A stretch of DNA of 64,000 nucleotides. Source: Polytrichum commune (Eukaryota > Streptophyta > Polytrichopsida > Polytrichales > Polytrichaceae). This document shows positions 371-39,770 of the stretch, one piece after another. The DNA lies in the NCBI GenBank assembly GCA_950295325.1, contig OX485805.1:34397501-34461500 (forward strand), read 5' to 3'. The notes beneath the pieces are model-generated. The model saw only the letters and a program-made list of their open reading frames with translations. It ran no database searches and was not told where the DNA came from. The translations under genes were made by a program, and so were the position numbers. How positions within the stretch are numbered: position 1 is the first letter of the stretch; the number at the start of each line of letters is the position of its first letter.

Positions 371-3300
371 CTACTCACATTCTACAATACCAGCAAGTTC
401 AAGTAGTCGCATGACCTCATTATAGGTATATGTAGGTGCATGAATGAACTTGTCACTCTCGTAATTCACCTTGCACAAAATCCTAAACACATAATAAAGA
501 TGTTTACAATACACTCATTTTCCTTTCTTTCCCAATGCATGAGAGGACATTTTCGTGAAATCTGGACATGTGCAATGCGGGATATCGCCAATTGTGACAT
601 GGTAGGTGATATCCTTCTTGGAGACAATGTTGATTATCACTCCAAAGCCCGGATATGGAATGGCAGTGATCCCAACCACATAGTAACCTAACATGAGTCC
701 GGCGCTCTCCCATTTGTTTTTGTGATCCGCCAGAGGTGCTGTTGGATTACGATGAACTGTCTTCCCAAATCTGAATGTAGGGTGGGCGTCTGGGTTTGGT
801 GGCATAGAAAAATGCGAGCGAGGGATGGGAAGAGTTGCGATTGTTGAAAGCCTACGACGAGGAGACAATGCCTCCCTCTGCTGTAGTTGAAATCCAGCAT
901 CTTCAAGTGCCAAAACCTCCTCTCTCGATAGATTGGTACGTATCTTCACTGGCCACGTGTTGGGTACTACAGGCCAATCCAACACATATTTCTTCTTACT
1001 GCCACTCACACAACGTTTGATGTCGTCAGGACAAAACCAAAATTCATACTCCACATTGTTGGGAGAGCGAAATTCCTTCCTGAGCCCTTTGTATGTTGGA
1101 GCAGGTGTGCCATGTTTCCCAGTCCCGACTTTGGCATTGTACATAGTCCCTGTAATGGCCTGCAGTGCCCAACAACGTTTGGCTGAGTTGGGTGGCAATC
1201 TTGCAATGTGCCACTTAGAAGCAAGACAATCAGTCTCTAACACGGATGTAGTATGAGCCACACCATGAATTGTAGAACTCAACGATTCCTTTATGCGTTG
1301 ACGAGTTGCTCGGGTGTTGGGACGAGGAATGGAATAGTTCATTTTGTCGGGTCGATGAGAGTCACAATCAGTACCCGGTGGTAAGTTGAGTTTGCGTTTG
1401 GTGGAACCAAAGAGCTCTGACCCTTCCAATGCACAATCTCTCGTGTTGACGTCTTCTGCCCCTGGATAAGACTTCATGGCATCGGCCAACATTTTTGGAT
1501 CTCCACACCTGGCAGCCGCTTTGAATTTTAAGGATGCCGAATCAGGACCTTTACCATCAGACCCCCCTTTCAACCATGTCCGGTAATTTGCAATTTGCAT
1601 GAAGGCACGAATCATGTCGTCCACTATAGCTTCATATAAACAAATCATCTTGTTGCCGGACTGTTGGAGCCATTTGTTGTGTACAGTCTCTGCAAGGTTG
1701 CATGTAGGCATTTCCGCACGTTCTTCTATTGTCATATCCTATGAACAACACACAAATATGAGGATAAGAAAAATAGAAGATATATATAACAGTGGAAGAA
1801 AAATGAATGACATTGAAGAATGAAATTTGATATGTACTTACAAATAGCATATGACCACCCCATTGTCTGTAACGAAATTGCCAAAAACCCAACCACTCTG
1901 AAACGCCAAGGATGTCTTCTTCTGAGGCAGCTCCGGATGACAACCACCAAGAACGAATCACATGATACTTAGTCTCGGCGTAGTCCATCGTTTTTGCGTC
2001 TTTGTAATCCTTGCATATTTGCTTGTGTTAAAACTGCAAGGATGGTTTGATATACTTTTGGGTCACCTTATCCAAGCTCGCAAACCAATGGAAAAGACAT
2101 GTACGCTCACGTGCAACCATGGGTAGACTTGGATCACCATCCCTGTAAACCGCCCTCACCGCATTCCAATTAGCTTGAGCACTATCAGCCATAAACCCTT
2201 TGAAATTTACGTTTGGTACACCATTTTCTGCCATGACATTATTCAAATTTTCCCAAAAGAGAATTTATGCTGCATCATCTTCAGATTGCATGTCACAACA
2301 CGCAATAGTCAACACTTTACAGTATCGACTGTCGTACACATGGCAAGCCATGGTTGTCCAGTCCTTCAAACGTTTGATATGGTCAAACATAATCCATGAA
2401 TTCTCCATGTCCCTACCGACTTGCATCCTCTTCACAAGCTCCACACCACTACCTGTAAGGTCTACAGACATCTTGAAAACAAACACTTTGTCCTTTGACT
2501 GCCCTGGAAACCGACTACCATGGACGAACTTAAAAGCAGAGTGGTCTTTGAGTGCCATAATACTATCCATAGTTCCCATTCCACTACGCAAAAAACGCTT
2601 TGATCCGGATACAAAGTTACGACAATTCGGGGACGTAAGAGTGCTGAATTTGTCCATGACGACCTCTAGGGATGAACCAACCAAGTGATGGCCTTCGACA
2701 TTTGCGGGAGATTTGAAAAGGTAATCGGCCAAGAATTGTTTGCTTGCTGCCATAACTATGGCTGAATTTTTGGCTGTGGGTGTTTTCAATACTTTATTTG
2801 CAACGCACTGGTATGCCATGTCCAATGACTCACGGCATGTGCCATTGGCCACAGGGTGATCATGTACACCGATATGAATGCAAGCCCTGGACATTCCAAC
2901 AGATGTGGAATGGATGTATAGGATTCGAGCATGACATAAAGCAATGCACACAGGTGTGGAACGACATACCTTACACTCGACAATGGACCTAGAAGGAGGA
3001 ACATTACCCACAGCAAATGGGAGAGGAATTGAACCGGCCCATTTAGTGTTGTTCCGGAGGCCCCCATTGCGATTCATGTAATCACAGTAGTCATTAGGAC
3101 ATTGGAGATGACCAGCACAAGTGGAGCGCCGGAAGGACAATCCAAAATCATTTTGGATATTGGTGGTTTTGGTGGTGCACCAAGGGTGACCGTCGCACAT
3201 CTTGTCAATGCCGTCCATTGAGCGGCCATATGTACTTGGAGCTTTAAGTGTCACAGGGGGTAAGAGAAACAAAACATCACCATTAAAAAAAGATGGTAAG

Positions 3301-4004
3301 TACTTGACATCATGAACATCTATACTATCAAAATCAATGGATGCGAGATCTGACTTTGATCTTTTTCTAGACTTTGTAAGCTTCAAAGCATCAACAATAG
3401 TCAACCCTATAGATGAAGGTGAATGGTGTAGTGGAGGACGTTGAGAAGGTGAGAGCTGGGGAACCAAACTCTTGTACATAGGACCGCATGGAGATTTGGC
3501 TACATGTATAGGAAGCTGTGAAGAAGTGGAATGAAGACTTTTAAATGGAAACGGCGATGTGTTTGAAAGATCAACAGATGCACAAATGTCATCTTCCGAA
3601 TCTGATAGCACAAACACACGGTCATCAGTGGGTTCAAATTTAACAGGTGCGACATAGGGAATTTGAACGGTGGATGTACCGGATTCGTTTGTCAAGATGA
3701 CAGTTGAAGCTTGCATCTGAGATTCAGAAAAACCTATTACCCTAAATGAACCAGGTCCTAAGATCCACATAAAACCAACCTCGGTTCTGTTTTTTTGAAC
3801 CAAAACCGTTTCATACATCTCTCCATCTGCAGAATACATCTCCTGCTCTAAATACATGGTTCCTATCTGGAGGTTGAATCTCAGACTAAGCAAATCCTCT
3901 GAGACATTGACATGACCATCATCTTGAAGTGGCAAAATGAAGGGAACAAAAGATCCATGAGCTCTAATGGTAGCCATGGAGAAGAAGGAAAAGATGAACA
4001 ACAC
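371..4004 (-). pseudogene. MULE transposase with SWIM zinc finger, nonsense-inactivated
   Basis: Mutator-like (MULE) transposases cut and paste DNA in the nucleus. The reading frame runs from 4004 (or the better-context ATG at 3977, protein beginning MATIRAHGSF) to a TAG at 371-373, with one GT-AG intron at 1739-1841 that keeps phase 0. Order of parts: a variable N-terminal region, a Cys/His-rich segment, the MULE catalytic core (Asp in VYDSRYCKVLTI, then FMADSAQANW, then the C..H string RTCLFHWF), a long C-terminal region, and a SWIM finger (CTCPDF ... YCKH). The frame is broken only by three in-frame stops: TAA 2265-2267, TAA 2028-2030, and TGA 515-517 inside the SWIM finger. All could be transitions (CAA to TAA, TGG or CGA to TGA). 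No terminal inverted repeats were identified. The family call is firm; the exact start is not. Confidence 0.85.
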
Positions 4005-5139
4005 ATGATAATAATCTTAGATCAACATCGCTTTTGTATTGAATGATGGAGAATATAATAATGGATGTAAATTAAAAGAGGTGATACCATAGCATCCAAT
4101 AATACAAAAATAGACAGATCATAATAGTAGACAGAGAATATTTGCAAAGAAGACATAGAATCCTAAACCAGATCTCAAAAAGGATCTCCTTTAGAAACTA
4201 AGCCATAGGAAACTTGAACCCACAAAGGAATTGTCTAATATAAGATTATCACATGGGAGAAATGCGGGCACGGATATCATGGAGAAAACGGCGTCAAATA
4301 ATAAACAAGTTGGCAGAGTTTTAAAATACGACTGTGTAGGCTGGATGTAGATGCAGGAACAATTAAAATTGGCCGGCAAAGTAAATGATTGGCCATTATA
4401 AATAGAACAAAGTCAATGTGGTAGGTTGGGATATCAGAGAAATTTGGCGGATATAATAAAAATAGAAGCAGAGTGAAAGACGCGTTAAAACAACTTGATC
4501 ATTGGACGCCAATTGCAACACTGATGATCGTAATGTGCGACAGGTTTAAGTGAGCTCTAAACACTAAACAAATGTATGAAAGTGGAGCGGTAGAAGATAT
4601 ATCATAGACAGCAATGATAGTGGAACATGTAGAGAGAACACTAGTGAGGCGGAAGACAAGACATAGGAAGGCGGAGGACGATGAAGGTGCAGAGAGCATG
4701 CAGACGATGGTATTTCGGAGTCGGAAATGAAGACGAGTTCACAAAACAGAAGAAACAAAAAGGTAAATCAGCTTCTGAAATTGTTTGATTTGAAATTATT
4801 TTGCTATGTATTCCTTAACAAGATGTTGTTTGTTTATCTTGTTTGAAATATTCATATGGTTGATTGTATATTTTTATTTGTATTATATTATGTATGTATT
4901 TAGTTGGATTATGATGGGTATTAACACATCTATGTTGTCAGGTGCTAGTAATGTGACGTTGGCGATCTTCTTTTGAAGAACCAAAATTTCTAGCAAGTCC
5001 ATCACCTTCACGAAGCCTCCCTATCTATGCTGAGACCGTGGCTTCTATTTGGAGTTCATAAATTTAGTGGCCGAATCATTATTAACATCTATGAAATGCA
5101 TGTTGTTGAGAGTAACAATGCAGTGCAGAGGGTAGTTGA
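4005..5139. other. Intergenic, no gene seen
   Basis: AT-rich sequence with only short open frames lacking domain-like composition. It probably includes the promoter side of the MULE pseudogene. I see no repeat array or RNA gene. Confidence 0.45.
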
Positions 5140-5577
5140 ATGCGTTTAAATGTAAAAGAACGTCATTTATTCATGTTAGCAGTGGTTACTCCAGTGAAGG
5201 GTAGGAAAAAAAGTAGGCGAAAAAGTAGCTTTCGTTTTTCAAGTAAGAGACAATTGTCAAGGGCTAGAATGAATAGACGTATTCCTCGAATGAAAGGAAT
5301 GGACCTATCAGGTACAACAAGGAATTTGACGTACGAAGATATTGTGGCATGCGAAATGATAACGGAAGATGTCTTCGAACACCAAACTCCTACATGTGAA
5401 GCTCAACCACATATCGTCTCTAAATGCAATGAAGAAGATGAAGAGGAGGAAGAGGAGGAAGATTATGATAAAGGCATCGACGAAGAGCAAGCCACACAAT
5501 ACGAAAAAAAAAAACAATCTTCTGAGGCGGAGTTGGAGGTAAGTTGTACGAAAGAAATGATAAGAGAAGAAATTTAA
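5140..5577 (+). CDS. Hypothetical basic/acidic protein (145 aa)
   Basis: An open frame from ATG at 5140 to TAA at 5575-5577 predicts 145 residues. The first half is Lys/Arg-rich and serine-rich (GRKKSRRKSS); the second has a long glutamate/aspartate run (about residues 98-107) and a Lys/Glu tail. There is no domain I recognise and no spliced homologue in the window. The composition fits a nuclear or transposon-associated low-complexity protein, but a chance frame is possible because the acidic run comes from a GAA/GAG-rich tract. It lies about 480 bp upstream of exon 1 of the ParB-methyltransferase gene, with no evidence that the two are linked. Confidence 0.2.
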   Translation: MRLNVKERHLFMLAVVTPVKGRKKSRRKSSFRFSSKRQLSRARMNRRIPRMKGMDLSGTTRNLTYEDIVACEMITEDVFEHQTPTCEAQPHIVSKCNEEDEEEEEEEDYDKGIDEEQATQYEKKKQSSEAELEVSCTKEMIREEI

Positions 5578-6059
5578 AATGAAAATAAATTTAGAGGTAT
5601 ATAATGTATACTATATTGTGCACACCGAAAATACGATTCCAACGGTATATAGCATGAACAAAATAATTTTGTTTTGCATGTTTTAGAGCCAAAAAACAAT
5701 TAGAGCATCTTAGATTCTTCTAAAATCTTCAAAACATGTAGATTTTATGCAGGAAATCTAACCATATTAGTTTTAGTAGACTTTGACGATTTATGTAAAA
5801 TTGATATTATCTCCAATAATTCTGAAAAAAAATGGAATGAATGGCAAGGCTTAAATCTACGCACTAGATTTTTTGTGGAAATAAATTAGGATATTTAAAA
5901 AAGTTATAGCAAAGATTCCATAGACTGAAATCTACCAAATTTTTTTTTTAGAGGCCAACTTACCCTAATCTCTTGAAGCCATACTCTTCGTAATGTCTTC
6001 AGACATCCTCTTTCGAAGTGCGGTGGCAACAACATACGCAAGAAGCAAGAGCACGCACC
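5578..6059. other. Intergenic, upstream of ParB-methyltransferase copy A
   Basis: AT-rich, no gene seen. It would contain the promoter and 5' leader of the gene beginning at 6060; no convincing TATA box could be assigned. Confidence 0.4.
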
Positions 6060-9000
6060 ATGGAGGATGCAGATGCTGGTACAAGTTCCAGGCGGCGACG
6101 TGGGCGCATAGACAAAACAAGCAAGAGCGACAAAGGAGCTGCAACTCCGAAAAGCGACTCAAATGAAGGTGTGTTTCTCTTCCAAATGGGTAGCCGTTAA
6201 CGGCCACCCTTTCTATGATGCCCACTTCTGTGTTGTAGTCTGTGTCATCTAAAAATGTGGCCCTTAACGGCCACCCTTTGTTGCATCTTATATTTCTGAG
6301 TATATGTGTTTCTTTCTTCAAATATACACACATTTCCTTAAATTTTTTGTCCTTGAAATTTCAGACTCTTCTCCATATGTGTTTTTTCTTCGTCAATGCA
6401 CTCCATTGCTTCATTTTTTTTTCCTCCAACAAGGGTGGCCGTTAAAGGCCACCCTTATTCTCATTTTGGATTTTTGTTCATAAGGGTTTCTTTCTACATG
6501 TATACACCCATTTCTCTCATTTTTTTTTCCTTCAATAAAGGTGGCCATTAACGGCCACCCTTATTCTCATTCCAGATTTTTTTTCATAAGGGTTTTTTTT
6601 CTACATGTATACACCCATTTTTCTCATTTTCTGTCCTTCAATAAGGGTGGCCGTTAACGGCCACCCTTATTCTCATTTTGGATTTTTATTCATAAGGGTT
6701 TCTTTCTACATGTACACACCCATTTCTCTCATTTTTTTTCCTTCAATATGGGTGGCCGTTAACGGCCACCCTTATTCTCATTTCACATTTTTGTTCATAA
6801 GGGTTTCTTTCTACATGTATACAGCCATTTCTCTCATTTTTTTTTCCTTCAATAAGGGTGGCCGTTAACGGCCACCCTTATTCATATTTCAAATTTTGTT
6901 TCTACATGTATGCATGCATGTGTGTATACATTCATTTCCTTCATTTTTTTTCTCCAAGAAGAATAGCCGTTAACGGCCACCCATATTCAAAATTTAGACT
7001 TTTTGGGAATATGTGGTTTTCTCTCTTATGTATACTCTCACTTTCCTTAATGTTTTCTCATTTTGTTTTAGTTTGCATATGTGATTTCTTTTATATGTAT
7101 ATATTTCTTTTGATTTATTTTTGTTTTTCAAATGGGTGATATGTTTTGTGCTTTAGATTTGGAAGTTGTACCGCTTTGTGAAGATCAATTGGAGATGCAC
7201 TTGCATGCATTTTTTAAGAAAGAAACTGTCAACACATCTTCCTGTCTTGAACGGTTGAGGTATCAACCAAGGGCAAAATCAAAATTCAACATTCCACTAT
7301 GTCGAATGATTGCATTGCCTGTTGTAAGGCATTTTTTTAAAAATGACGTTATGAACCTGGCTGCATATTTTGTTGCTTGTGGTTATATGGAGGGCAATGG
7401 GGTTTTTTATGTGGCCTTGGAAACAATGAGGGGAAAACAGTAGATGTTACCGATAGTATCATTGAATCTTGGAATGAAAATTGGGTGAGGGCTAATGATG
7501 CTTTTGAAAAAATATTGCAAGCTGATGTGGACCTCAAAGTTTTTTCTGGCAAAATGTTCATGGTGTGGGACGGAAATCACCGTTTGCAAGCATGGTTGTC
7601 CATTATTAATCGAGATCACACATATGATCCGGTTTGGCATTATGCTGTTGAAAGTATTATTTTGGACGTCAAAGGAGATATTGCAATCATGTTGGCAGCT
7701 TTACATGAAGTCAATTGGTAATTACTTCATTCTTTTGTTTTTATTTGTTCGGTTCATTTGGTTTTTTTTTAGTTTATTTTTTTATTGTATATATCTTTTC
7801 TTTGGCTTATCATTGGATGTTTTGTTTTGACAGGAGGAACCAAAAATCCCATGTTTGTACCAATCTTGTTCATAAGCTTTTCCGCATTCAAAGCATTGCT
7901 GGACAACCACTTTCATATTTTGAGAAACTTATTTCCAAAGAAGATCTTACTGCCGCTGATGCCAAACAAAAATCCAAACATAGGATTTGGTTTACTTTGA
8001 CTGTTGAGGCTCTTAATGGATTTCTATACCAGGTTATTTTTTCTAAAGTATTCGTTTTTCACGATTTTTGTTTTCTTGTATATTTTTCTTGTTTCCTTTT
8101 TATTTCGATTTCTATAACTATATTTTTTATTGCATCTTATTTTTGTAGTGTGTGATTATTCATACTCTTATATGTTTTTTCGTTGGTGTAGCAAGAGTTG
8201 GGAGATGCTGCTGCTACTGCTCAAAGGAAATTTTATGAGAAATATCATGATCCTGCGCATTGGACTTCGAGTGCGGTAGATGAATTTGTTTCCAAAGCTG
8301 TTGAGAGGGTGAGATTGACTTCTTATTCGGAATTGAAGAAACAACTTCCCATTGCGGATCCTAAACATTCTCCTATGTTCTTAGAGCAGGTGAAGTGTCA
8401 TTATGAAACTCACGATGAGAACCCTGAGATGACTCAAGAAAAACTTTGGTTGTTAGCAACTTCGGCAATAAACACATCTATGAAGATTAAGTGGCTTGAG
8501 AGGTGGAACAGTTCACCTGCTCTTCGTGAGGCTCTCAAGTTTCCGAAACCAAAATTCAATGATATAGAGTTTCCTAAGTGGCTTCATAAAGCTACTTGGT
8601 GGGCTCAGGTGATAATTTTTGTCCTTCTATTATGTTTGGTTCATTTATTTTTTGTCTATGTTTTTAATTTATTTTAAATATTTTTTTAATCATTTAATTC
8701 TTCTAATTTTTATTTTGTATTTGGCAGTTGGCTATTGAGACCGAGAAGCTCTTTGATGCTACTGTGGCTGATATGCATGTGTCCATCAACTACCTTCCAG
8801 ATGGTATGGATCCTTTGCCCACTATTTTTTATTATGTGGAGGCAATGCGCATATCATTGTGGGATACTGCATTTTTTCGTGAATTCGGTGTGGATAAGGG
8901 AGTTCACAAAAATCATAACATTGACAAGCAACTCAATTTTTATCCGGCCATGCGAAGGGTGTTTTATAGGTACTTCAAATATGTCTTATTTCTTGCGAAA

Positions 9001-11060
9001 ATCATTTTCAAATCTCCCATTTTTTTGGCTAATTATTTGGATATCGAAAGTGAAGAATGCATGTTCACAGAGGGGATCATGAAATCTTGGGATCCTGTGC
9101 ATTTTGAAAAATGTGGGTGGTATTTGGATTATCCTCTTAAATCACCTCCCACTTTTGATATTGCGCTTTGAGATTCCATTCAACCCGCCCTCAAGGGTAC
9201 AACTAAAATTGTTCCCTCTATAATGGATGAGGATGCAGCCAAGATGCCAAAAAAAAGAAAGTCTAAGCCTAAAAGACCAATCCTCCTCATTCATGATAGC
9301 GATGAGGATGCTCCAATTCAAAGCAGTCTCAACAACCTTCTTCTTCAAATCTAGAGGCAACATTTCATACTTCAAAGCGGCAGAAAACAACCCCTTCTCC
9401 TACCTTGGATATGCCTCCCAAGCTTAGAGGTATGATGAATATCTTGCCTCCTTTACCTGCAAATCATACATCTTCGGATTTAATCTTGAATGATTATTTT
9501 GTGAGGATTATCGAGGATAAGAAGCAAACATGTACATTTCGTGCACCATATACGACATTGTGGCTTTTCTATCAAAGGTGAGTTCATTTTATTTTACAGT
9601 TTTTACTTTATTCAAGTTTATAAAGTTTCACTCGTATTTTGTTACGTTATTTCATTTTTTATTTTTAATTGTCGTCTTTATTCATGAATTGTAATATTTA
9701 TATTTTATCTTTGTAGGTTGGTGAAGGTAGACAATTTTTTTTTTATGGCCAATTGCAAAAGAAACCTGCTGTGGACCTCATTATTGCGGATTACCCAGAT
9801 GGTCTTCGGGTTCCAGGTGTCTCGGATCCGCCATCTCAAATTCCCCCTTGGAATGCCAACATTCCAAGTTTTCTCAACATATTGATGGCATTTGCTCTTA
9901 CCTATCTTCATGATGATGGAGCATTCCTTTTGTTTTATCCTGACAGTTCTGCCGTGAAGAGAGAAGTGGCAGGATTCTTCAAGAACTATAAGTTCAAAAT
10001 CAAGGATGAGTGGACTATCATTAATTCCTTGCACTTGGCAAATTCTATGAATCCGTCCAAAAATGTAAGTAGCAATTATGACATTTCATTTTGATTGGTT
10101 CATATTTGAATTTGTTTTTATGTGTTGTATATTTTTTAATTTCAATTTTATATTGACTTTCAGACTTTGAAGTTCAAGGCTTTGTTATTGGTTCGATCAT
10201 TTTCAATTCCCTTTGCGTGGCAACCTCAAGAACTTCTGATCACCATGCATCCTTCAATTCCTGAGGTCGATTTAGCCACAGATAACGTTCTCTTCAACTC
10301 TATTACTATGGAAACTCAATTATGTAGACAAAGAGATGGCAAGCCATAGAGGGGTGCAAAGGAGAAGTCTGAAGTTTTAATGAGGTTATTTGTTCATGAT
10401 TTGAGTCCTGTAGGCGGTATTGTGGCAGACATGACTGCTTCTACATGTATTGTATATTACAGTATCCAATTATTCGTTCATATGTTTTTTAATTCATACT
10501 TTAATGTTCGTATTTTTCTAATTAATGTTTTGCTTCATCCAGGTCCTTCTATTAGAGCGGCTCATTCATCCAATCGTCATATTCTAGCATTAGAAAGTGA
10601 TGCCGAACTCTTTGATGAGGTACTAAAACCTCTTCAAACACCTACAAATGATACCTCATGCGATGGTATGGACTTTGATGATGATACTCCAATAGAAGAT
10701 GCCGCACTTCTTAACTTATGTGAGTAAGTTTTTTCATTGTTTTTTTCTCAACAACTTTAATTGCAAATTCTAGATTTTGTATTCTAATTTGTTGTTACAT
10801 ATTCTAATACATGGTTTGTTGTTTGTAGTTGGATGAATCCATCGCCGATACAAATCTCGTCATTTTATCGGCACCGTAGATTATTAAGAAGCCCCTCTCT
10901 TAGTCCTCAGAGCCTCCCTGTGTATGCTGAGGCTTTAGCTGAAGCTTATGCTAATGCTTCATCTACTTCATCTTCAATTTCACCTTCACCTCGTAGATAT
11001 TACGATACTAGAGTATGTGCTTATTTTGAACTCAGTGCATCTGAGTCCGACGATATTTAA
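6060..11060 (+). pseudogene. ParB-like / DNA methyltransferase-like fusion gene, copy A (decayed)
   Basis: Nine exons: 6060-6168, 7157-7717, 7834-8032, 8192-8608, 8728-9577, 9717-10064, 10164-10446, 10543-10723, 10829-11060, all with GT-AG junctions; phases agree except where noted. Exon 1 encodes an acidic start then RRRRGR. Exon 2 carries a ParB/sulfiredoxin-type signature (DGNHRLQAW). Exons 3-5 encode an unrecognised middle region ending in an NLS-like PKKRKSKPKRP. Exon 6 has DLIIADYPDG where beta-class amino-methyltransferases have motif IV (DPPY). Exons 7-8 hold the motif X/I segment (GGIVADMTASTC) and motif II (LALESD). That order, IV before I, is the permuted N4/N6 methyltransferase order. 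Damage: a frameshift near 7416, TGA 9169-9171, frame changes between about 9330 and 9577, TAG 10347-10349 where copy B has Trp. The SAM motif is degenerate (STC for GTG). Function is inferred from motifs only. Confidence 0.6.
6180..6990. repeat. Array of palindromes (about 106-bp period) filling intron 1
   Basis: Eight copies of a palindrome centred near 6198, 6266, 6444, 6550, 6656, 6761, 6867 and 6972. The last six are spaced 105-106 bp and separated by T-rich spacer. The best copies (6640-6671 and 6851-6882) are perfect 32-bp palindromes with half-site AATAAGGGTGGCCGTT. The array lies wholly inside the 988-bp first intron (6169-7156) of copy A. Confidence 0.9.
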
Positions 11061-12500
11061 GTTTGTATTCATGATTTGATTTTTGAAATTTGATTTCCAA
11101 GAACTTCAACAATTTTAATCTACTACCCGATTTATATCTACAATCCATTTTTGTTGTTCTTTATGTTTTGGACTTCGTAAATGTCACCCTCATGATGGTG
11201 TTATGATGTATTTAAATTTTACATTGATGTGTATTATAGTGAGACATTCTAACATGCTACACTTGTTTTCAACATGACTTTGCTTACACATTGTCTCCAA
11301 TTACATTATTATTATCTCAACAATTAAATGTATATTAGTTCATTTTTAGTACAAAATTGTTATAGCAACATTCTCATTTGTTGTTCATTTGGACTATAGA
11401 CCCTTACATGTAATTCCACAGTCATTGGCCCCCAACGGATTTACAAACCATAACCGGGAAAAAATTAAAGGCTCACATGTTCACGCTCGCATGCTCACAT
11501 ACTAGCAACCCCGAGTCGTGTACATATTGGTCTTTTTCATTGCTCACTACTTGCAATCTAGCATTCATATTATTTGTCCTCCCCAATCTTCTTATTATTG
11601 AACCCTAAAAAATTATTTCTTTAGGCCACGGTTATAGGATACTCGGGGTCCTATTACCAAATATTTTGTTTTCTTCACCGCTCACAAATTACCGCTCATT
11701 GCTCACCGCTCACTGCTCACCGCTCACAAGATAGCACTCCCCACCCTCCACATATGGTTGAAATGGGCCTACACAGTCACCAAGTGAAACAGCAACACCT
11801 CTGTCCTCATCCATAACCCTAGTAGTAGATAGCCCAACCATATAGTGATTAGGTAGCAAAAAATCAATCGAAAAAAGAGAAAGAGTCGACCATAGCCCAA
11901 GATAATATATCCCTGAAAAAGGTGTTTGGCGCCCTTGAGAAACGACCTTCGAAGAAATAGATGATACTCATCCTGTAGAAGACAACGAAAACATACCCGT
12001 TAAAAAATTTTGTTTAAATCAACCAATATTATTGGAAAGTGAGAGCACGGTAATAGGCAAAAAATAGGAATTTTTCAATCTTTAAACCCCTTGGGTCCAC
12101 GGTTATAGGTCTCAAAAATTGACCAAAAATAATGATATTCTTCGAATATTTCTAAAATATATTCCAAACTGCTAAATTTTACGAGCTAAATTTAGCAAAA
12201 ATGTCTATATTTGGATTATGGTCTCCATTTTCTGCTCTCCGCTCTCCAATTCTCCGCTCTCCACTCTCCGCCCATTGCTCGCATACAAGTCTCGTCCCAT
12301 GTAATAAATGCATATTTCTTCAATGGACAATTTAGTCCCAAACTTAATAAAAAAATGAACTTCACATTTATATTGAAATATAGCATTCGCAAGTTCTACC
12401 CAAACTTTGCCCTAATTTTGAAGAGCACACATATGAATAATATATATTCGTAGAATTACATATTACACTATAATCATGCTAACACAATCCTACCAACTTC
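11061..12500. other. Intergenic with transposon-end-like CTCACCGCTC/CTCTCCGCTC tracts
   Basis: No gene seen. Two tracts of short CT-rich repeats (about 11690-11735 and 12222-12290) and the strings ACGGTTATAGG (about 11630 and 12100) recur elsewhere near 21.73, 33.7 and 40.2 kb. They look like subterminal repeats of a DNA transposon family, but ends and target duplications could not be fixed here. Confidence 0.45.
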
Positions 12501-15421
12501 TCATTCAACATGGGTTGCTTCTTCTGCGATCCGAGCAAGGTTGTTTTTTGCAAAAGCTATGTACTTTTGAGGGATGGACACTGATCCACTATGATTTTTC
12601 CGTGGTTTCCATGCTATGAATATGGAATCTGTATCTACCCAAGATGGACCGTGCTCAGAATCCACCTTCCACCGAAAGTGTTGGTTTGTATCCCAGCCTG
12701 TATAATGCCGAACAACATCTTCATTCCGTGTTGTCGGTCGGTAGTACTCTACTTGTATTTGTCGAAAATGAGGGCTAGAAGTTATAAAATTTGGTTTGGA
12801 CAAAGCTCTTGCCACCCACACTAGCTTTGCATATGTCTCATCTCCAGGGCGCAAAATGAGCATATAACCTTCATGACAATCCACTGCAATGTGGAAAGAT
12901 GGTGGCGGACGACTACTAGCAGGCCCCACGTAATGGTCGTCCACATCAAACTCCTCTCGAACCTCTCCATTTTCCAAAAGACTAGCCTCCGAAGGTTGTA
13001 CATTGACACGTGTTTGTGGCCAAAACCCATGCCTTAAAGTAAGGGGTGTATGTGAGGCCAAACCACCCACCCTTAAGCGTCCTAGTCCGGGTGACGGAAT
13101 GGGGATCACATTCATGTTCACATAACTCCCTCTTCCCATGTTTGTACAAATCCATTTCATTCCCCATCAACTCTTGCACACCAATTTATTCCATAATACG
13201 AATACAAGCATTGAAAAATGTTTTTCTATATTTATTCTCTTCCTCCTACATTAATTCACAACCCCCACACTCAAATCCTCACTAAGCTTATCCCCTCATG
13301 ATTATAAACTTAAATGATATAAGTCTAAATAATATAAGTTGAATACAACGAGCTAAGCTCCAAATGCCTCAACCCAAAAACTACTCCTAACAAGTGTCAA
13401 TTAACTTCAATGCTAATTAGTCTTGGTTCTTCACCTCAAGACCTTGCACACACCCGTGCTCCTTTCTTGCTTCCCACACACCCACACTCATAACACGTGG
13501 GGTGCCAAGGAACACAAAGGAAAGAGAGGATGAGAGAGGGAAAAGTGAGGGTTTATATAGTGAGTTGAGAGGGAGTAGGTGAGCACTCCCAAGGCTCAAG
13601 ATAAGCCTTTTGATCCTTTGCTACTTTGTAGGCTCTCATCCTATCCTCTAAGCCTTCAACTCTTAAACCAACAACTTAGGTCCTAATTCAAACATTTAAA
13701 TCAAGAAGCTACCCTTGGTTCACCATACACTACGCTCACCTAACAAAGGAATTTTCTTCACACCCCTTAATTTTTAATCAACTACTCCACACGAGCCTAA
13801 GACCTAAACATAACTTCATTCAAGCTTTTTTTTTTAATATTTTTGTGAATAATCATAAAACATCAAAACATAACTTCTAATGGTTTCGAAGAGTTAAGAA
13901 CACATGTGAGCACCATTTTGGGCTCACAATGTATCTTGATGAAGGTTTGTCAAAGCGCCACGAACACGTGTCCAATATTGTATCCAACTTCCGTAACGAA
14001 GCCAACACAATCCACCAACATCCGCTACCCTCAAACTCTCCCAATATTGTATGAAGCCTGATATGCCTTTACCAATGTCCTCCAAATTCTTCATGGGTAT
14101 TGGTTTGCAAGGCTTAGGCTCTCCGTCAGGCAACATCGTCCTTCCCTCCCCATCAACACGCCATACAAGGAGACCCTCTAGCGGGCTCCAGTCTTGTGAC
14201 GTGCACAACAACTTGTATTGCATGGCGGGGACACCATCGTCACGCACGTAGAACCAAAATTGTTGTGCCTTCGTATGCCCGATCAATCGGTGAGCTCCGC
14301 TTCGAATATACGGTTCTATAAATGCCTTGAAGTCGGGAACCTCCTCGATCATATGGGGGATGACGGGAATGTTCTCCAAATCCATGTACGACTTCATCAA
14401 CAATGGGATCGTTGGAAAATCCTCCTCGCGCAACTTCATGCTCCACCGCCCAAAAGATGCATCCATATCATCGTGCGTGTGGCCTACCAATAGAAAGGAC
14501 ACAAAAACCTCCTTGAAAATGCCTTTCGCAACCAATAACAACCAATATGCAAAAACATATCTACTTTTATTGTCCTTCGTACAATTGTCCAATTGGACAC
14601 GCAGAGTTGGGGGCAAATTCTTGGCAATCACATCTTCACTTGGTGGCTCCGGCAACGAGTGCACGCATACATCTCTTCCATCCAAGACCGCTTCATATAG
14701 AGGTGTTGATCCCGAGTTTTCAAATAACAATCTTGATGAATAGGACGGCGGTTTCTCCAAATCACGTAAAAGCTTTGCAAATGACCCTATCGTGTGGTTT
14801 GAATCCGCCGGATACAAATCAAGAGCAATGAGCATACTTCACATTACCATGTCCATGTGTATTCATTCCTGCAATGCGAACCCAATGGTTTAGTATTCAA
14901 CTATAACACAAAAAAATTCACATGGTGTACATTTGTCGCCCCAAGTACAAACCTAAAAGCACAAAATTGTGTTTAGGTAATGCAATGCAATTGTTATCAA
15001 AATCACCTGTAACCGATACAGGAGGCTTAAAAAGACCGTCCGTGGTTTTGGCATGGTCCATTTTGTCATGGACGATTGTAAGGACCTCCAAAGGCCTAGA
15101 GATGGACAAAGCTCTATTTGTGTAGTAATCATTACGGTGTGCCTCTTGCATGTTCACATGCTTGAAATAGTTCATTTGATGTGCGGCATAGGACTCTGTC
15201 CCCATGGTCTGTGCATCTTGAAGGCGTTTCAACTTCTCGCATTTGGAACAACGGGCAAATTTGTTGCCTCGTCTTTTTGTGATGTATTCGCTAAAGTTCG
15301 ATTTTTTGATTGCATTCAGTTTCGACAATGAAATTGGGTCCAACCCGGCCTTCTCGCCAACTGCGTTTACGTCCAACAATATGTCTTTCCATTTCGTGCA
15401 TGTAGGAAGAACCTTCTCCAC
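12501..15421 (-). pseudogene. DUF7869-like transposon-associated protein, split by an LTR
   Basis: Exon 15421-14953 encodes a Cys-x2-Cys segment (ARCSKCEKLKRL) and DKMDHAKT. An intron (14952-14869) follows, then exon 14868-12501 carrying the hallmark block LLVGHTHDDMDASFGRWS and a long C-terminal region ending at 12501. This resembles DUF7869-containing proteins, abundant, uncharacterised and transposon-like in plants; I infer the family from the GHTHxDxD block. Two lesions are visible: a one-base shift near 14836, where the spliced frame meets a stop, and a solo LTR at 13051-13928 inserted between codons for ...HQDT and PLTLRH.... Deleting the LTR plus one target copy restores a continuous frame across the junction. 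Upstream exons beyond 15421 were not resolved. Confidence 0.65.
13051..13928 (-). mobile_element. Solo LTR (family 1, 878 bp), minus orientation
   Basis: Read on the minus strand it starts TGTGAGCCCAAAATGGTGCT and ends TTTGGCCTCACA, the same ends as the copies at 19091-21488 and 43490-45028. Flanks are GTGTA (13046-13050) and ATGTA (13929-13933), a 5-bp target duplication with one mismatch. No internal gag/pol is present, so it is a solo LTR. It interrupts the DUF7869-like coding exon. Confidence 0.88.
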
Positions 15422-19090: not shown

Positions 19091-21488
19091 TGTGAGGCCA
19101 AACCCACCACCCTTTAGCGTCCTAGTCCGGGTGATGGCTTTGAGAATCACATTCAATTCCTAATATCATAATGTGGATTGTTGTATGGCTCTTATGTCCT
19201 AGGTACTAACTTCAACTCAACTTGCTTTGTTATTGTGAGCATCGTTGCTCGTAGTGGAATTTGATTTCTCAAGGGTCCAACCCGCGGCCTTGGCCACACA
19301 TGCCCTTAAAGAGATCCCTCTAGACTTCTTGATTTTTACTTCCTTTATCTTGTCCTTGCTAGGATCCTCCACATTCTCCATTAATTATGCACGTGATTTA
19401 TTCCAACCAAAGAATACGAGTGTTTAAAAACACTTACCTCAATGGGTAACCACCAACTCATTCAAGAGTCACACACACTTCTACTTTCCTAATGAATCCA
19501 ACTTTACCTAAGAACCAAGATGGCATGAAAAAATCTAGTGTGGTCTAGCAATCCCGCAAGGGATTAGCCTAACTACCCCCCCCCCATAGTAGCCTAACTT
19601 ATTTAAGCTAACGAATTAGCCTTAGGCCCAGCAGAAATACCATCCAGCAGCCTTGGCCCAGCAGAAATACAGTCCAGCAGCCTTGCTATCGTGGCCTTGG
19701 CCCAGCAGAAATACAGTTCAACAGCCTTACTGTCGTGGCTTTGGCCCAGCAGAAATACAATCCAGCAACCTTGGCTCCTTGGCCTTGGCCCAGCAGAAAT
19801 ATAGTCCAGCAGCCTTGCTGCCGTGGCCTTGGCCCAACAGAAATACAGTCCAGCAGCCTTGTTGTAGTGGCCTTGGCCCAGCAGAAATACAGTCCAGCAG
19901 CCTTGCTGCCGTGGCCTTGGCCCACCAGAAATACAGTCCAGCAGCCTTGGCTCCTTGGCCTTGGCCCAGCAAAAATACAGTCCAGCAGCCTTGTTGTCGT
20001 GGCCTTGGCCCAGCAGAAATGCAATCCAGCAACCTTGGCCTTGGCCCAACAGAAATACAGTCCAGCAGCCTTGCTGCCGTGGCCTTGGCCCAGCAGAAAT
20101 ACAGTCAGCAGCCTTGGCTCCTTGGCCTTGGCCCAGCAAAAATACAGTCCAGCAGCCTTGTTGTCGTGGCCTTGGCCCAGCAGAAATGCAATCCAGCAAC
20201 CTTGGCCTTGGCCCAACAGAAATACAGTCCAGCAGCCTTGCTGCCGTGGCCTTGGCCCAGCAGAAATACAGTCAGCAGCCTTGGCTCCTTGGCCTTGGCC
20301 CAGCAAAAATACAGTCCAGCAGCCTTGTTGTCGTGGCCTTGGCCCAGCAGAAATGCAATCCAGCAACCTTGGCCTTGGCCCAACAGAAATACAGTCCAGC
20401 AGCCTTGCTGCCGTGGCCTTGGCCCAGCAGAAATACAGTCCAGCAGCCTTGGCTCCTTGGCCTTGGCCCAGCAAAAATACAGTCCAGCAGCCTTGTTGTC
20501 GTGGCCTTGGCCCAGCAGAAATACAATCTAGCAACCTTGGCTCCTTGGCCTTGGCCCAACAGAAATACAGTCCAGCAGCCTTGCTGCCGTGGCCTTGGCC
20601 CAGCAGAAATACAGTCCAGCAGCCTTGGCTCCTTGGCCTTGGCCCAGCAAAAATACAGTCCAGCAGCCTTGTTGTCGTGGCCTTGGCCCAACAGAAATAC
20701 AATCCAGCAACCTTGGCTCCTTGGCCTTGGCCCAGCAGAAATACAGTCCAGCAGCCTTGCTGCCGTGGCCTTGGCCCAGCAAAAATACAATCCAGCAACC
20801 TTGGCTCCTTGGCCTTGGCCCAGCAGAAATACAGTCCAGCAGCCTAATCTAAGTCATGAACTACTCTAAGTCATGAACTAATCCAACACCCTACTTTCAC
20901 TAACTACCACCTAATCACTACATGCAATCTTAAGCTTTAAGAGCTCACTCACTTGGGAGGCCTTGAGAGAGAGAGCTTAAATAATTGACTTCACTAAAAC
21001 TAATAACCCACACACGTGGCTCAAGCTCTTAGGAGCTTGCTCCCTTGAGAGCGCTTGATGGAGAGAGTGGTAAATGAGAGAGAAAACACCTTAAGTAGCA
21101 AAGAGGGAGAGAGGGAGAGAGAGGTGAGGATAGGGTGAGAGGATTAGCACCTCCAATCACAATCCCTTAACCTTCACCTCCAAAGTAGGGACTAATCCCC
21201 ATCCACCAAGCTTCCTTCTTCCTAAACTAACAAGGTGGATCCAAAAGTGGGCATTTAACCCGCGGAGCTCACCTTGCTTCACCTTACCCCCTACTCACAT
21301 TATCAAGGCATACTCTTATTGAAATCAAACCTTGAAATAATCACACAACACCACCTAATGCCTAAAGTTAAATCCACACCACACTTCACTCTTTTTATGT
21401 TTTGTGAATAATCATAACACATCAAAGTCAAACTAAAATTGGTTTCGAAGAGTTAATCACCACATGTGGGCACCATTTTGGGCTCACA
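19091..21488 (-). mobile_element. Solo LTR (family 1, 2398 bp), minus orientation
   Basis: Plus-strand ends are TGTGAGGCCAAACCCACC and TTTTGGGCTCACA. Flanking 5-mers are GAGGC (19086-19090) and GAGGC (21489-21493), a perfect target duplication. It is much longer than the 878-bp relative at 13051 because of an internal 44-bp minisatellite (19620-20850). It contains no retroviral genes. Confidence 0.92.
19620..20850. repeat. 44-bp minisatellite inside the LTR
   Basis: About 28 copies of a unit containing CCTTGGCCCAGCAGAAATAC, with two alternating variants (GCTGCCGTGG and GCTCCTTGG) and several shortened units. It produces long spurious open frames on both strands. The position is within the transcribed/variable middle of the solo LTR. 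Confidence 0.9.
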
Positions 21489-22679: not shown

Positions 22680-23674
22680 CCCTTATAAGGATGCACAATA
22701 TACTCATAAATATCAGATTTTGAGGTTGTAATGTGGTGCCCCCGAGAGGTGCCGTTAACGGCACCTCCTTTGGGGGTTTTTTTTTATATTTTTTGGTGCT
22801 TGAAAATGACATGTTTATGCACTCTAAGGTTGAGGGTAAGTCAATATGGCTAGAAATTGCTCGTTGGTCATATATTCGGACCCCCTTAAGTTGATTTTGG
22901 TCTTGGTTGAAGGTCATGTAAGGATGCATAATATACTCATAAATATCAGATTTTGAGGTTGTAATGTGGTGCCCCCGAGAGGTGCCGTTAACGGCACCCC
23001 CCTCGAGGGTTTTTTTTTTTGATTTTTTTGGTGCTTGAAAATGGTCCGTCTACACACTGTAAGGGTGAGGATGAGTCAATATGGCTAGAAATTTTAGGTG
23101 GGTCATATACTCGGACCCCCTTAAGTTGATTTTGGTCTTGGTTGAAGGTCATATAAGGATCTATAATATACTCATAAATATCAGATTGTGAGGATATAAA
23201 GTGGTGCCCCTGAGAGGTGCCCTTGACAGTACCCCCCTCGGGGGTTTTTATTTTTATTTTTCTGGTGCTTGAAAATGGCCTGTCTACACACTGTAAGGTT
23301 GAGGATGAGTCAATATGAATAAAAATTGCAGGTGGGTCATATACTCGGACCCCCTTAAGTTGATTTTGGTCTTGGTTGAAGGTCATATAAGGATGCATAA
23401 TATACTCATAAATATCAGATTTTGAGGTTATAATGTGGTGCCCCTGAGAGGTGCCATTAATGGCACCCCCCCTTGGGGGGTTTTTTTTAATTTTTTTGGT
23501 GCTTGAAAATGACCTCTCTACACACTGTAAGGTTGAGGGTAAGTCAATATGGCTAGAAATTGCTCGTTGGTCATATATTCGGACCCCCTTAAGTTGATGT
23601 TGGTCTTGGTTGTAGGTCATATAAGGATGCAAAATATACTCATAAATATCAGATTTTGATGTTATAATGTGGTG
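22680..23674. repeat. 234-bp tandem array with GGTGCCGTTAACGGCACC palindrome, first part
   Basis: Palindrome centres at about 22757, 22990, 23225 and 23459, spaced 233-235 bp. The 18-bp perfect core is embedded in a wider dyad (CCCCCGAG ... CTCGGGGG) followed by a T run. The third and fourth copies carry mutations, those of the fourth compensatory (CCATTAATGG). The array is cut at 23674 by an LTR-like insertion and resumes at 26514 in register. Confidence 0.92.
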
Positions 23675-26513: not shown

Positions 26514-27480
26514 TGGTGCCCCCGAGAGGTGCCGTTAACGGCACCCCCCTCGGGGGCTTTATTTTTTATTTTTTTGGTGCTTGAAAATGGCCTGTTTATG
26601 CACTCTTAGGTTGAGGGTAAGTCAATATGGCTAGAAATTGCTGGTTGGTCATATATTCGGACCCCCTTAAGTTGATTTTGGTCTTGGTTGAAGGTCGTAT
26701 AAGGATGCATAATATACTCATAAATATCTGATTTTGAGGTTATAATGTGGTGCCCCTGAGAGGTGCCGTTAACGGCACCCCCCTCGGGGGTTTTTTTTTT
26801 GATTTTTTTGGTGCTTGAAAATGGCCTCTCTACACACTGTAAGGTTGAGGATGAGTCAATATGGCCATAAATATCAGGTGTGTCATATATTCGGACGCCC
26901 TTAAGTTGATTTTGGTCTTGGTTGAAGGTCATATAAGGATGCATAATATACTCATAAATATCAGATTGTGAGGATAAAATGTGGTGCCCCCAAGAGGTGC
27001 CGTTAACGGCACCCCCTTCGGGGGTTTTTATTTTTATTTTTTTGGTGCTTGAATATGGCTTGTTTATGCACTCTAAGGTTGAAGGTAAGTCAATATGGCT
27101 AGAAATTTCAGGTTGGTCATATATTTGGACCCGTTACGGTCATTTAAAGCTTGGTTAATGGTCATATTAGGATGCATAATACACTCATAAATATAAAATT
27201 TTGAGGTTAATATGTGGTGCCCCCGAGAGTTGCCGTTTACGGCACCCCCCTCGGGGGACTTTTATTTTTATTTTTTTGGTGCTCATATATGGCCTGGATA
27301 TGTACTATTAGGTTTAGGATGACCGAATATGGTTAGAAATTTCAGGTTGGTCATATAGGTGGACCCGCTACGTTCATTTAATTCTTGGTTAATGGTCATA
27401 TTAGGATGCTTGATATGGTAATGAAAATCAAATTTTTCGTTAACGGCACCCTCTCGAGATATGCCGTTCACGGGTTTTTT
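26514..27480. repeat. 234-bp palindrome array, second part
   Basis: Palindrome centres at about 26537, 26771, 27005, 27238 and 27442 (spacings 234, 234, 233 and 204). The last unit is shortened, and its T-rich tail directly forms the polypyrimidine tract of the splice acceptor at 27487-27488 of the methyltransferase exon. The array therefore appears to occupy an intron. Confidence 0.9.
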
Positions 27481-27488: not shown

Positions 27489-28859
27489 GTTGGAGCATCC
27501 AGGGAATTCTTCTTCTCCGGCAAGGTGTTGCATAAGGCTGCGGTGGACCTCGTCATTGTAGAGTATCCTAATGGTTTGCCTGTCCCAGGAGTTTCTGAAT
27601 TCCCGGGGCAAGTTCCAAATTGGAATAAGCAGGTTCAGAACTTTATCAAGTTCACCATTGGTTTTTGTCAGGACTATCTTCACGACGATGGCGCACTCCT
27701 CTTATTTTATCCTGACAGTGTGCAAATCAAGAAGGAGGTCTTGAGCTTTCTCTACAACAACAACTTGGAGGTCAAGGAGGAATGGACCATCATTAATTCT
27801 CTACACCTCACTCACCCCATGCATAACTCTAAGCGGGTGAGTAATTGTAGCCATTTCCCACTCTTCAAGTTCGAAGTCATTCATATTTTCAATCACATTG
27901 CTAACAATTCGAGGCCTATGTTTGATGTCCAGACTCTGAAATTCAAAGCAATCGTGTTGGTTCGATCTTTCTCCACACCTTTGCTTAGGCCACCCAAGGA
28001 GTTTGTTATTTCTTCCAGTGACAAATTTGAAGATGTTGACCTAGCAAATGATGACGTTCTTTTCAACATTGTCACCTCTGATACTGCATTCAAGCGCAAC
28101 GACGATGACACATTCTGGAGGGGCCCTAAAGAGAAGGCAGTGTCCCTGCTCCAGCTTCTAATCAGTGGCCTTAGCCCTCCAGGCGGGATTATATGTGACC
28201 TCACTGCTGGAACTGGTATGAGTAATTTATGTAACATTCCCATGCCTCTAGACTTAGGCAATTCAATCACCTTCTACTAATTCATTTGTTTTGCTCTTTG
28301 TAGGTGCCTCGGTTCTTGCAGCACAATCTACTAACATGGCAATAGTGGCACTTGAGGGAGACAAGGAATTGTACGAAGAAATTTTGCACCCAATACAGGT
28401 CGCAGCCTCGGAGTCTCTAGGGGTCGATCCAACTCACGTTGTAGACCTTGACGAGGACGACGACGATGCCCTCCCTCAACAGGGTGCAGTTAATCTATGT
28501 GAGTAACTTTGTTGTCATCTTAAACTTAATGTTGAGTATGTTGCATTTGATTGGAAGTATTCTAACAATCGTAATTTCTCCTCTGTTGGTGCAGTCTGAT
28601 GGATCAATACTTCGGCTCGCCGACTAGTCCTACCATGCAACTTCCTTCTTATGCCGAGGATATGGCAGTAGCTTATGCCAAATACTCCTTTAATGTTCTA
28701 GCTAAACTCAAGGATAATATTCCAATCCTTAAGTCTCCAAACTTATCAACTAACTCCGCTAAGTCTTCAAGTTCGCCAATTAAACTCTTAGGTCTTTCAA
28801 TTCCGCCAACTAAGTTCTTAAGTCTTCAAGCTTGCGATGATGCCTTGACGCTCACGTGA
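27489..28859 (+). CDS. DNA methyltransferase-like C-terminal half, copy B1 (intact exons)
   Basis: Four exons, 27489-27836, 27933-28215, 28304-28502 and 28595-28859, with GT-AG junctions and an uninterrupted frame to TGA. The first two are 348 and 283 nt, exactly as in copy A, and all phases match. Exon 1 has the motif IV position VIVEYPNG and the block YLHDDGALLLFYPDS. Exon 2 has the motif X-like stretch WRGPKEKAVSLLQLLI and then GGIICDLTAGTG, which continues ASVLAA in exon 3: a good SAM-binding motif I followed by motif II ALEGD. Exon 4 is an extra C-terminal tail with YAEDMAVAYAKYS, also seen in copy A. The order IV then I identifies beta-class N4/N6 DNA methyltransferases. DPPY is replaced by EYPN, so catalysis is uncertain. 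The 5' half is missing upstream, where the palindrome array lies. Confidence 0.65.
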
Positions 28860-29582: not shown

Positions 29583-30370
29583 GGAGGTCCCTAGGTGGCC
29601 TCATTTCAACTTAGAAACTAACACTTTCAAGCCTCGGCTCTACTTTGAGATTTCAAATGCTCACTTTATATGTGTGTAGTTGGCCTCATTTCAAGTTAGA
29701 ATGTAGAATTTGAAGGTGGGCTCTAGGCTTAGATTTCAGGTTCTCATATTATGTGGCTGTCCAATATATGGGGTTCGGGACCGAAACCTTCCTTTGGAGG
29801 TCCCTAGGTGGCCTCATTTCAACTTAGAAACTAACACTTTCAAGCCTCGGCTCTACTTTGAGATTTCACGTGCTCACTTTATATGTGTGTAGTTGGCCTC
29901 ATCTCAAGTTAGAAAATGGAGAATTTGAATTGGGCTCTAGAGTTAGATTTCAGGTTCTCATATTATGTGGCTGTCCAATATATGGGGTTCGGGACCGAAA
30001 CCTTCCTTTGGAGGTCCCTAGGTGGCCTCATTTCAACTTAGAAACTAACACTTTTAAGCCTCGGCTCTACTTTGAGATTTCACGTGCTCACTTTATATGT
30101 GTGTAGTTGGCCTCATTTCAAGTTAGAAAATGGAGAATTTGAATTGGGCTCTAGGCTTAGATTTCAGGTTCTCATATTATGTGGCTGTCCAATATATGGG
30201 GTTCGGGACCGAAACCTTCCTTTGGAGGTCCCTAGGTGGCCTCATTTCAACTTAGAAACTAACACTTTGAATCCTCGGCTCTACTATGAGATTTCAAGTG
30301 CTCACTTTATATATGTGTAGTTGGCCTCATTTCATGTTAGAATCTAGTACTTGAAGATGGGCTATAGGCT
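29583..30370. repeat. 214-bp tandem repeat, about 3.5 copies
   Basis: Units beginning AGGTCCCTAGGTGGCCTCAT recur at about 29585, 29799, 30013 and 30227, spacing 214 bp, near-identical. The array ends shortly before the acceptor (30489-30490) of the ParB-like exon, in the position of intron 1 in copy A. Short frames inside it are repeat artefacts. Confidence 0.92.
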
Positions 30371-30490
30371 AAGATTTTAGGTTCCTTACATTATATGGCT
30401 CTAATGGGTAGAGGTTAATTACAAAGCAACATTATCAATTTGGGTCAAATGATACTTTCTTTCACCTACAATGTGTTGACTCTTTGGTAG

Positions 30491-31429
30491 GTGCATGCTA
30501 TATCTTCGCCACCTTCGACACAAGTATCGGAGGGAAAGCTTCCAGATATGGATATACTAGAGGACGAGCATGAGGTAGAAGAAAAGTCTCTTGGAGATGA
30601 TGCTCACTTTCTAGGTAATGAGGATGAGATTCGGACCAGGCAGAAAGTTAACTCTGTGGCCACGATCACAAGCTTGAGATTTCAACCAAACAGTTCCTCG
30701 CGATTTAATATTCCATTGTGCAGATTGATGGCAATGCCAATGGTACAGCCAACTCTGGCATCCTATCTTGCTAAACTCGAGCAAGAATTTGTGCACGGAT
30801 ACAGGGAAGGCGCTTCGGTCTTTTATGTTACAATCACCAATGAAGACGGAAATACCCATGAAGTGACGGAAGCTGATAAAGCTTCTTGGGGTCCTATTTG
30901 GGACGCCAAAAACGTCATTTTCAACTCATTTCTCCTCTCGGATCCAGCGTTGGCTCCATTTACAAACTTGATTTTTTTGTGTGCGACGGCAACCATAGGC
31001 GTCAAGCTTGGTTAAATCACATTGACAGACTTCACCGAACTGATGAGGATTGGCATTATTTGGTGGATTCAATTCTCCTTGACACAAAGGGGAAAAATGG
31101 ACTTGTTATGCAAGTCATGCACAACATAAACAAGTATGTTCATTCTCTTTTGATATATAATCTTTCATTGAAAATTCAATATGATTTCACTTTCTTTGTT
31201 ACTACGATAATCTAATATCTTCCATTTGATTTTTATATTTAGACATATAGAGGACTCTCATGTGAAGACCAACATTGTCCATACCCTCTTCAGGGTTCAG
31301 AAGTATGGTCTTATGTCAATTGAACAATTCAATGACATTTTGAGTCCAACCGACCTCAAAAAGTGCAAGAAGTCTCAGAAGACTTGGTATTCGTTACCAT
31401 TACATGTGTTTACAAATTTCATATTTCAG
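30491..31429 (+). pseudogene. ParB-like N-terminal half, copy B2 (partial, one frameshift)
   Basis: Two exons, 30491-31133 and 31243-31429, match exons 2 and 3 of copy A: SSRFNIPLCRLMAMPMVQP corresponds to KSKFNIPLCRMIALPVVRH, and CDGNHRRQAWLNHIDR to WDGNHRLQAWLSIINR. Junctions are GT-AG with the same phases. The first exon has a one-base deletion in a T run (30972-30978), which throws the GNHR motif out of frame. Before the ParB block is an acidic segment (DILEDEHEVEEKSLGDDAH). The donor at 31430 leads straight into more tandem repeats and no later exon was found. This half lies downstream of the methyltransferase half B1, so the two are not one collinear gene. Confidence 0.6.
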
Positions 31430-39746: not shown

Positions 39747-39770
39747 GAAGGGCAACCTGGAATGGGCAAC

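Follow-up and report, generated by a model that had tools for sequence, protein, structure and literature searches.

What is a plant locus doing with a ParB-like motif at one end and a methyltransferase-like domain at the other? The question is raised by positions 6060–11060 of a 64,000-nucleotide stretch of Polytrichum commune DNA (GenBank assembly GCA_950295325.1, contig OX485805.1, positions 34,397,501 to 34,461,500 of the forward strand), which we call the window and in whose numbering all positions are given. The initial annotation of this locus, here copy B, proposed that a bacterial- or phage-type ParB-methyltransferase had entered a plant nucleus, gained introns and spread. As a whole, that interpretation is partly supported. 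We read copy B, with moderate confidence, as a decayed member of a eukaryotic family of spliced genes whose ancestor was a class-beta amino-methyltransferase (PF01555 type) of bacterial or phage kind. That ancestor probably had a ParB/Srx-like nucleoside triphosphate-binding module in front, and intact members of the family would be pseudo-methyltransferase subunits.

The family is spliced and has at least three copies within the 64-kb window. Searches inside the window (tblastn with pieces of copy B) revealed two partial copies: copy A (27489–28859), which corresponds to the C-terminal part, and copy C (30491–31429), which corresponds to the N-terminal part. Between A and B, the methyltransferase exons are conserved at 55.3% and 48.9% identity (tblastn E 6e-35 and 7e-25); between B and C, the N-terminal parts reach 50.9%, 41.8% and 32.8% (E 1e-15, 9e-16 and 9e-10). 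Intron position and phase agree at all five comparable sites (introns 2 and 3 between B and C, with intron 3 of C compared on its donor side only; introns 6–8 between A and B). Moreover, differences between copies fall mostly at third codon positions. A and B differ at 82 first, 48 second and 127 third positions of 209 codons (Fisher test of second against third positions, 4e-15), and C and B at 85, 61 and 109 of 172 codons (3e-7). Shared introns and this codon pattern together mark a genuine spliced protein family, and from the codon pattern we infer that selection acted on the protein during much of the time in which the family diverged.

The initial annotation had the exon structure right. 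Copy B lies on the + strand and has nine exons, and all eight introns are bounded by GT..AG; introns 7 and 8 each offer several candidate GT donors, and the frame-keeping one was taken. By exon coordinates the copy runs to about 1,060 codons, including a long middle region. Exon 1 (6060–6168) begins with an ATG at 6060, encodes a basic N-terminus and ends at a GTGTGT donor in phase 1 that splices onto DLEVVPL. Exon 2 (7157–7717) carries DGNHRLQAW, and exon 3 (7834–8032) is the one with 32.8% identity to a copy C exon. The middle region consists of exons 4 (8192–8608) and 5 (8728–9577); exon 4 matches no Pfam family at E up to 10, and nothing else in the window credibly resembles it. Exon 6 (9717–10064) holds the motif IV region with DLIIADYPDG. 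Exon 7 (10164–10446) runs to motif I (GGIVADMTA in the exon, DMTASTC for motif I once spliced), exon 8 (10543–10723) contains ALESD, with ALESDAELFDEVLKPL as the acidic motif after motif I, and exon 9 (10829–11060) ends in a TAA stop at 11058–11060. The initial annotation had placed DGNHRLQAW in exon 2 and the other motifs downstream of it, as is the case.

Copies A and C are also on the + strand. Copy A starts with an exon for the motif IV region (27489–27836; DLVIVEYPNG), which accounts for the 55.3% identity to B, over 94 residues, and has a GTGAGT donor in phase 0. It continues with an exon ending in motif I (27933–28215; CDLTAGTG once spliced), an exon with VALEGDKELYEEIL (28304–28502) and a last exon (28595–28859) closed by a TGA at 28857–28859. 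In copy C, CDGNHRRQAW lies in an open frame with its exon (30491–31133); position 30491 is where the open frame begins and is unproven as an exon start. A homologue of exon 3 follows (31243–31429). Separately, positions 4957–5058 may preserve a piece of the last exon of a fourth copy, SPSPSRSLPIYAETVAS being similar to SPSLSPQSLPVYAEALAE (E 0.026 against the B exon and 0.073 against the A exon).

What kind of protein does the family encode? Sequence comparisons support the identification of the C-terminal part as a class-beta amino-methyltransferase domain of the PF01555 type, and this half of the earlier proposal has held up. PF01555 (N6_N4_Mtase) is the sole Pfam family to match at E up to 10, with 23.5 bits and E 6e-5 for the spliced sequence of A and 16.5 bits and E 0.0085 for B. 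PHROG 3008 (DNA methyltransferase) matches both copies (E 1.3e-9 for A, 1e-4 for B), PADLOC MTase_II matches A (E 4.6e-6), and the best NCBIfam match has E 0.0057. As the annotation had noted, motif IV lies ahead of motif I, the order of class beta. An A+B profile compared by hhalign with six phage and plasmid enzymes (the EmiRose, Streptomyces and Miltoncostaea proteins being left out) gives a probability of 96.8 and E 2.3e-10 across columns 173–241, the motif I end. The motif IV half alone, compared with nine enzymes (the ten listed proteins minus EmiRose), scores 24.7, a value reached by none of 200 column shuffles (mean 13.0, maximum 21.0), and its alignment puts EYPN onto DPPY. The strand and helix order of an AlphaFold model built from window pieces agrees with a methyltransferase fold. 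In a Foldseek search with this low-confidence model, M1.HpyAVI, CcrM, MboIIA and M.BceJIV come out on top, and the N4CMT of the bdelloid rotifer A. vaga stands at rank 36.

Several results pull the other way. Neither A nor B reaches the curated PF01555 cut-off of 26.7 bits, and PDB sequence searches with the methyltransferase part returned nothing significant (DpnA at E 0.12; best of the other search, E 0.19). The case for the motif IV half depends on the shuffles, hhalign's own probability being 8.2 (E 0.0041). The AlphaFold model has a predicted local distance difference test (pLDDT) score of 37.7 and includes residues from an in-frame intron of A, and none of its Foldseek matches has E up to 0.001 (best 1.6e-3).

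The catalytic motif of this domain has changed. At the position of DPPY in bacterial enzymes, copy A reads EYPN and copy B DYPD, and neither has the canonical [DNS]PP[YFW]. Of ten proteins compared, from phages, plasmids and viral contigs, DPPY or DPPF is present in eight and DLPY or DIPY in the other two. Methyl transfer would therefore be expected to be lost or changed. The altered motif IV is common to A and B, so the change is probably older than the A/B split. Motif I differs between the copies: A has the GxG (DLTAGTG) and B, with DMTASTC, does not. From these residues, copy A appears to retain an S-adenosylmethionine-type motif I that copy B has lost.

Contrary to the initial description, copy B is not an intact gene. 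Exon 2 changes frame near 7420, at a site through which copy C is open. Exon 5 contains an in-frame TGA at 9169–9171 and a second frame change somewhere between about 9306 and 9351, both judged from copy B's own open frames alone because no other copy spans 8192–9577. Where the methyltransferase part begins the phase breaks, exon 5 ending in phase 2 and exon 6 requiring phase 0. Exon 7 has an in-frame TAG at 10347–10349, where copy A has TGG, and two glycines of motif I are gone from the spliced sequence. Copy B looks like a decayed copy, a pseudogene, and most likely does nothing itself.

Is the N-terminal part a ParB domain? According to the available text of one source (PMC12704722), the ParB fold has GxxR as its Box II, and sulfiredoxin is the commonest eukaryotic protein with that fold. 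The GxxR motif is present in B and C as DGNHR, and in both copies DGNHR(L/R)QAW follows a hydrophobic stretch. The same motif is joined to PF01555 in L177, a 476-amino-acid viral-contig protein with VDGNHRLQAL, ParB_N (E 0.0064, below the cut-off) and PF01555 (E 3e-27). Pfam scans of 10 of 29 viral open frames with DGNHR found ParB_N in two and PF01555 in one, and left eight without a family at E up to 0.01.

There is a real possibility, however, that the N-terminal part is not ParB/Srx and that its DGNHR is of independent origin. The initial annotation called this half ParB-like, and it does have a GxxR motif; searches of Pfam, NCBIfam and PDB, however, matched neither a ParB profile nor one for DGQHR or DndB. 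The sole Pfam match is DUF5531 (E 0.022–0.031), whose 15.1 and 14.6 bits fall short of its cut-off of 25. Other weak matches are PHROG 17902 (E 0.087) and 33364 (E 0.3) for copy C, both of unassigned function, TIGR01975 (E 0.096) for copy B, and unrelated PDB chains from E 0.15. Shuffled sequences that keep the motif score equally well in most tests. With a hidden Markov model of 19 viral DGNHR proteins, such shuffles match B and C in 251 and 278 of 1,000 cases; with a model of 94 viral DGQHR proteins the counts are 610 and 478, and with the two sets combined 519 and 313. (The DGNHR set came from 53 stretches with the 29 open frames, 19 being used in the model and 18 in the profile comparison; the DGQHR set came from at least 120 stretches with 99 frames, of which 94 and 91 were used.) In the profile comparison, which included a third profile of 4 sequences, the N-terminal part was equalled by 2, 29 and 38 of 120 motif-keeping shuffles, which is marginal in one of the three. 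An AlphaFold model of 99 residues is all-helical and of low confidence (pLDDT 46.0).

Against an independent DGNHR stand the retention of the motif in B and C at an overall identity of 41%, its occurrence in L177, and the one profile comparison at 2 of 120, where the hhalign probability is 94.2. A further likeness is to the DndB/GmrS group of the ParB/Srx fold, which is marked by DGQHR with FxxxN as far as the text available of PMC4619093 describes it. The window sequences share the DGxHR pentapeptide, and their LHEVN and MHNIN are similar to FxxxN; they differ from the group in having no Pfam or NCBIfam profile match, and the 94-protein model stays at shuffle level. We keep a ParB/Srx-like module as the candidate front of the family. 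As a separate matter, DGNHRxQAW was considered as a bacterial hallmark and rejected. It occurs in no stretch of the viral contigs and in ten stretches of the GTDB contigs. In six of these ten the motif falls within an open reading stretch, and none of them resembles a ParB domain on inspection, no family search being made.

Were the two parts ever one gene? The fusion that had been proposed stands in so far as both parts are present in copy B, but that copy is broken around the junction. No open reading frame contains both domains, A and C hold one part each in the window, and no copy in the window spans both parts intact, which speaks against a fusion. Since the two parts share one array only in copy B, with breaks in between, they could be two neighbouring genes: an N-terminal gene that contains DGNHR and stops near 9169, then a methyltransferase-derived gene of its own from about 9400, with A and C separate genes too. 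The TGA at 9169, the frame change and the phase break all fall between the parts, and A has the methyltransferase part only and C the N-terminal part only, as two genes would predict. By contrast, the earliest exon recognised in copy A is preceded by an AG positioned as in B exon 6, so that upstream exons were apparently once there; the open frame of copy B carries on, in the same frame, on both sides of 9169; and an N-terminal part followed by a methyltransferase is the order of the phage fusions. We consider two genes possible but doubtful, and take the intact members to be probable fusions.

Could the damage be an assembly error, with copy B intact and encoding an active DNA amino-methyltransferase? 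The frame change near 7420 occurs at GGAAACAATG, where three A stand in a row, and that of copy C near 30968 coincides with seven consecutive T. A base may have been lost at such sites, and both frame changes may be sequencing errors, a point that tells against decay. However, run-length errors would not explain the two in-frame stops, the two lost glycines or the non-canonical motif IV, all of which come from base differences, and motif IV is altered in A as well as B. An intact and active copy B is improbable. It is hardly credible that the methyltransferase-like part belongs with the ordinary eukaryotic relatives of MT-A70 (METTL3/14-like) and not with bacterial-type enzymes: the Foldseek matches do include MTA1 at rank 14 and METTL3/METTL14 beginning at rank 22, but bacterial enzymes are ranked first, no Pfam family other than PF01555 is matched at E up to 10, and the PHROG and PADLOC matches are DNA methyltransferases.

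From where might a class-beta amino-methyltransferase of this kind have come? Among the 30 phage records listed of 402, the lowest E belongs to Corynebacterium phage EmiRose (1e-3), and among the 20 plasmids listed of 2,446 to Gloeobacter morelensis (5e-4); both cover the motif I end only. With the N-terminal part, tblastn against phages and plasmids gave no match. Scans able to reach close relatives only found none, which does not favour a bacterial or phage source: 125 and 74 stretches of viral contigs (IMG/VR) were picked out using the A/B and B/C alignments, and 38 stretches of GTDB contigs, with no relative among them. Nor was there a relative among the 190 and 5 viral-contig stretches found with patterns from middle exons 4 and 5.

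Comparison with known systems places the family near the phage fusions. ParB-N6_N4_Mtase fusions are reported, in the text available of PMC12704722, to be more frequent in phages. Phage and bacterial fusions such as L177 have GxxR/DGNHRLQA in front, a PF01555-type domain behind and motif IV before motif I. The window family differs from them in being spliced, in its long middle region of no known family, in its altered catalytic motif, in a front that is a candidate ParB only, and in that an intact copy is yet to be seen.

There is also a parallel in a plant nucleus. Marchantia polymorpha MpDN4MT1a/b are bacterial-type N4-methylcytosine (4mC) methyltransferases, and the passages available of PMC8566409 and PMC8885841 describe them as active and without extra N- or C-terminal domains. 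They are alike in being bacterial-type amino-methyltransferases of a plant nucleus and, by that description, set apart from the window family by their activity and lack of extra domains. The N4CMT of bdelloid rotifers is horizontally acquired and active and has an SPPY motif and a chromodomain, according to the same partial text (PMC8885841). It resembles the probable fusion of the window family in joining a bacterial-type amino-methyltransferase to an added domain, and was met above at Foldseek rank 36; it differs in having SPPY instead of EYPN or DYPD, and Pfam scans found no chromodomain in the window family. The family thus differs from the Marchantia and bdelloid enzymes in its middle region, its possible ParB-like front and its changed motif IV.

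The initial annotation also knew of no plant system of this kind that had been described. Our literature search, including plant-directed queries, likewise found no plant ParB-methyltransferase system, although its coverage of subscription journals was thin. The claim needs qualifying: as far as the text available of PMC8566409, PMC8885841 and PMC12704722 goes, Marchantia has bacterial-type 4mC methyltransferases, reported to be without extra domains, and phages are reported to have ParB-N6_N4_Mtase fusions. The literature searched has few examples of a eukaryotic nucleus with a bacterial-type amino-methyltransferase (Marchantia and bdelloid rotifers).

How might such a protein have worked? 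In the ancestor, an N-terminal GxxR module would have bound nucleotide and loaded the protein onto DNA or chromatin, and the C-terminal domain would have bound S-adenosylmethionine and flipped a base out. Intact present-day members may be S-adenosylmethionine- or DNA-binding pseudo-methyltransferase subunits in which methyl transfer has been lost or changed. METTL14 is comparable in logic to such a subunit. If this reading is true, the family, spliced, duplicated and altered in its catalytic motif, would be an example of an enzyme turned to another use.

A palindrome recurs around the copies. Eight cores of GCCGTTAACGGC (five exact, three with one mismatch) lie in intron 1 of copy B at 6193–6977, six of them in a tandem array of about 106-bp units (6403–6988) and two before it. 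The core is also found in a 234-bp tandem array at 26514–27416 and the bases that follow (to 27474), directly upstream of the first exon of copy A, and in a related 234-bp array farther upstream (22684–23674). In all, 18 matches with up to two mismatches occur in the window against 0.87 expected, an excess that is overstated because array copies are not independent events; eight are in copy B intron 1, nine in or just after the two 234-bp arrays and one elsewhere. The repeat units around the core differ between arrays (about 106 and 234 bp). A far-reaching proposal would make this a multi-copy plant-nuclear family from a phage ParB-methyltransferase fusion, now a non-catalytic DNA-binding clamp under selection with a fixed [DE]YP[ND]G, that binds the GCCGTTAACGGC palindrome arrays of its own genes in parS-like self-recognition. 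We regard that combination as very improbable.

Other repeats are present nearby. Related tandem arrays at 29583–30400 (about 214 bp) and 31576–32937 (about 85 bp) flank copy C and have no GCCGTTAACGGC match, and a 44/88-bp tandem array at 19650–20845 has several of its reading frames open on both strands. Copy B was also considered as a transposon and rejected: no terminal repeats were found between the flanks 4000–7150 and 9700–15000, the best of 40 listed matches having E 0.014 over 21 bases and none exceeding 27 bases.

The rest of the window contains several likely traces of mobile elements. Two long open frames on the minus strand at 515–4016 have the look of an old transposase and match no Pfam family at E up to 0.1; CTCPDF in one of them presumably resembles a SWIM-type zinc finger. 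A DUF7869 domain (13924–14838, minus strand; E 2.5e-37) probably belongs to a mobile-element gene. The 444-bp direct repeats at 33274–33717 and 39769–40212, 98% identical, are possibly the long terminal repeats of a young retrotransposon, and a long minus-strand frame between them (37267–39047) is gag-like by eye, without a supporting family match. Neither tRNAs nor Rfam matches at gathering scores were found in the window. The window is eukaryotic in style and its content suggests a plant host: a BEACH and kinase gene at about 52844–55340 on the minus strand has a layout that we take to resemble that of plant GFS12.

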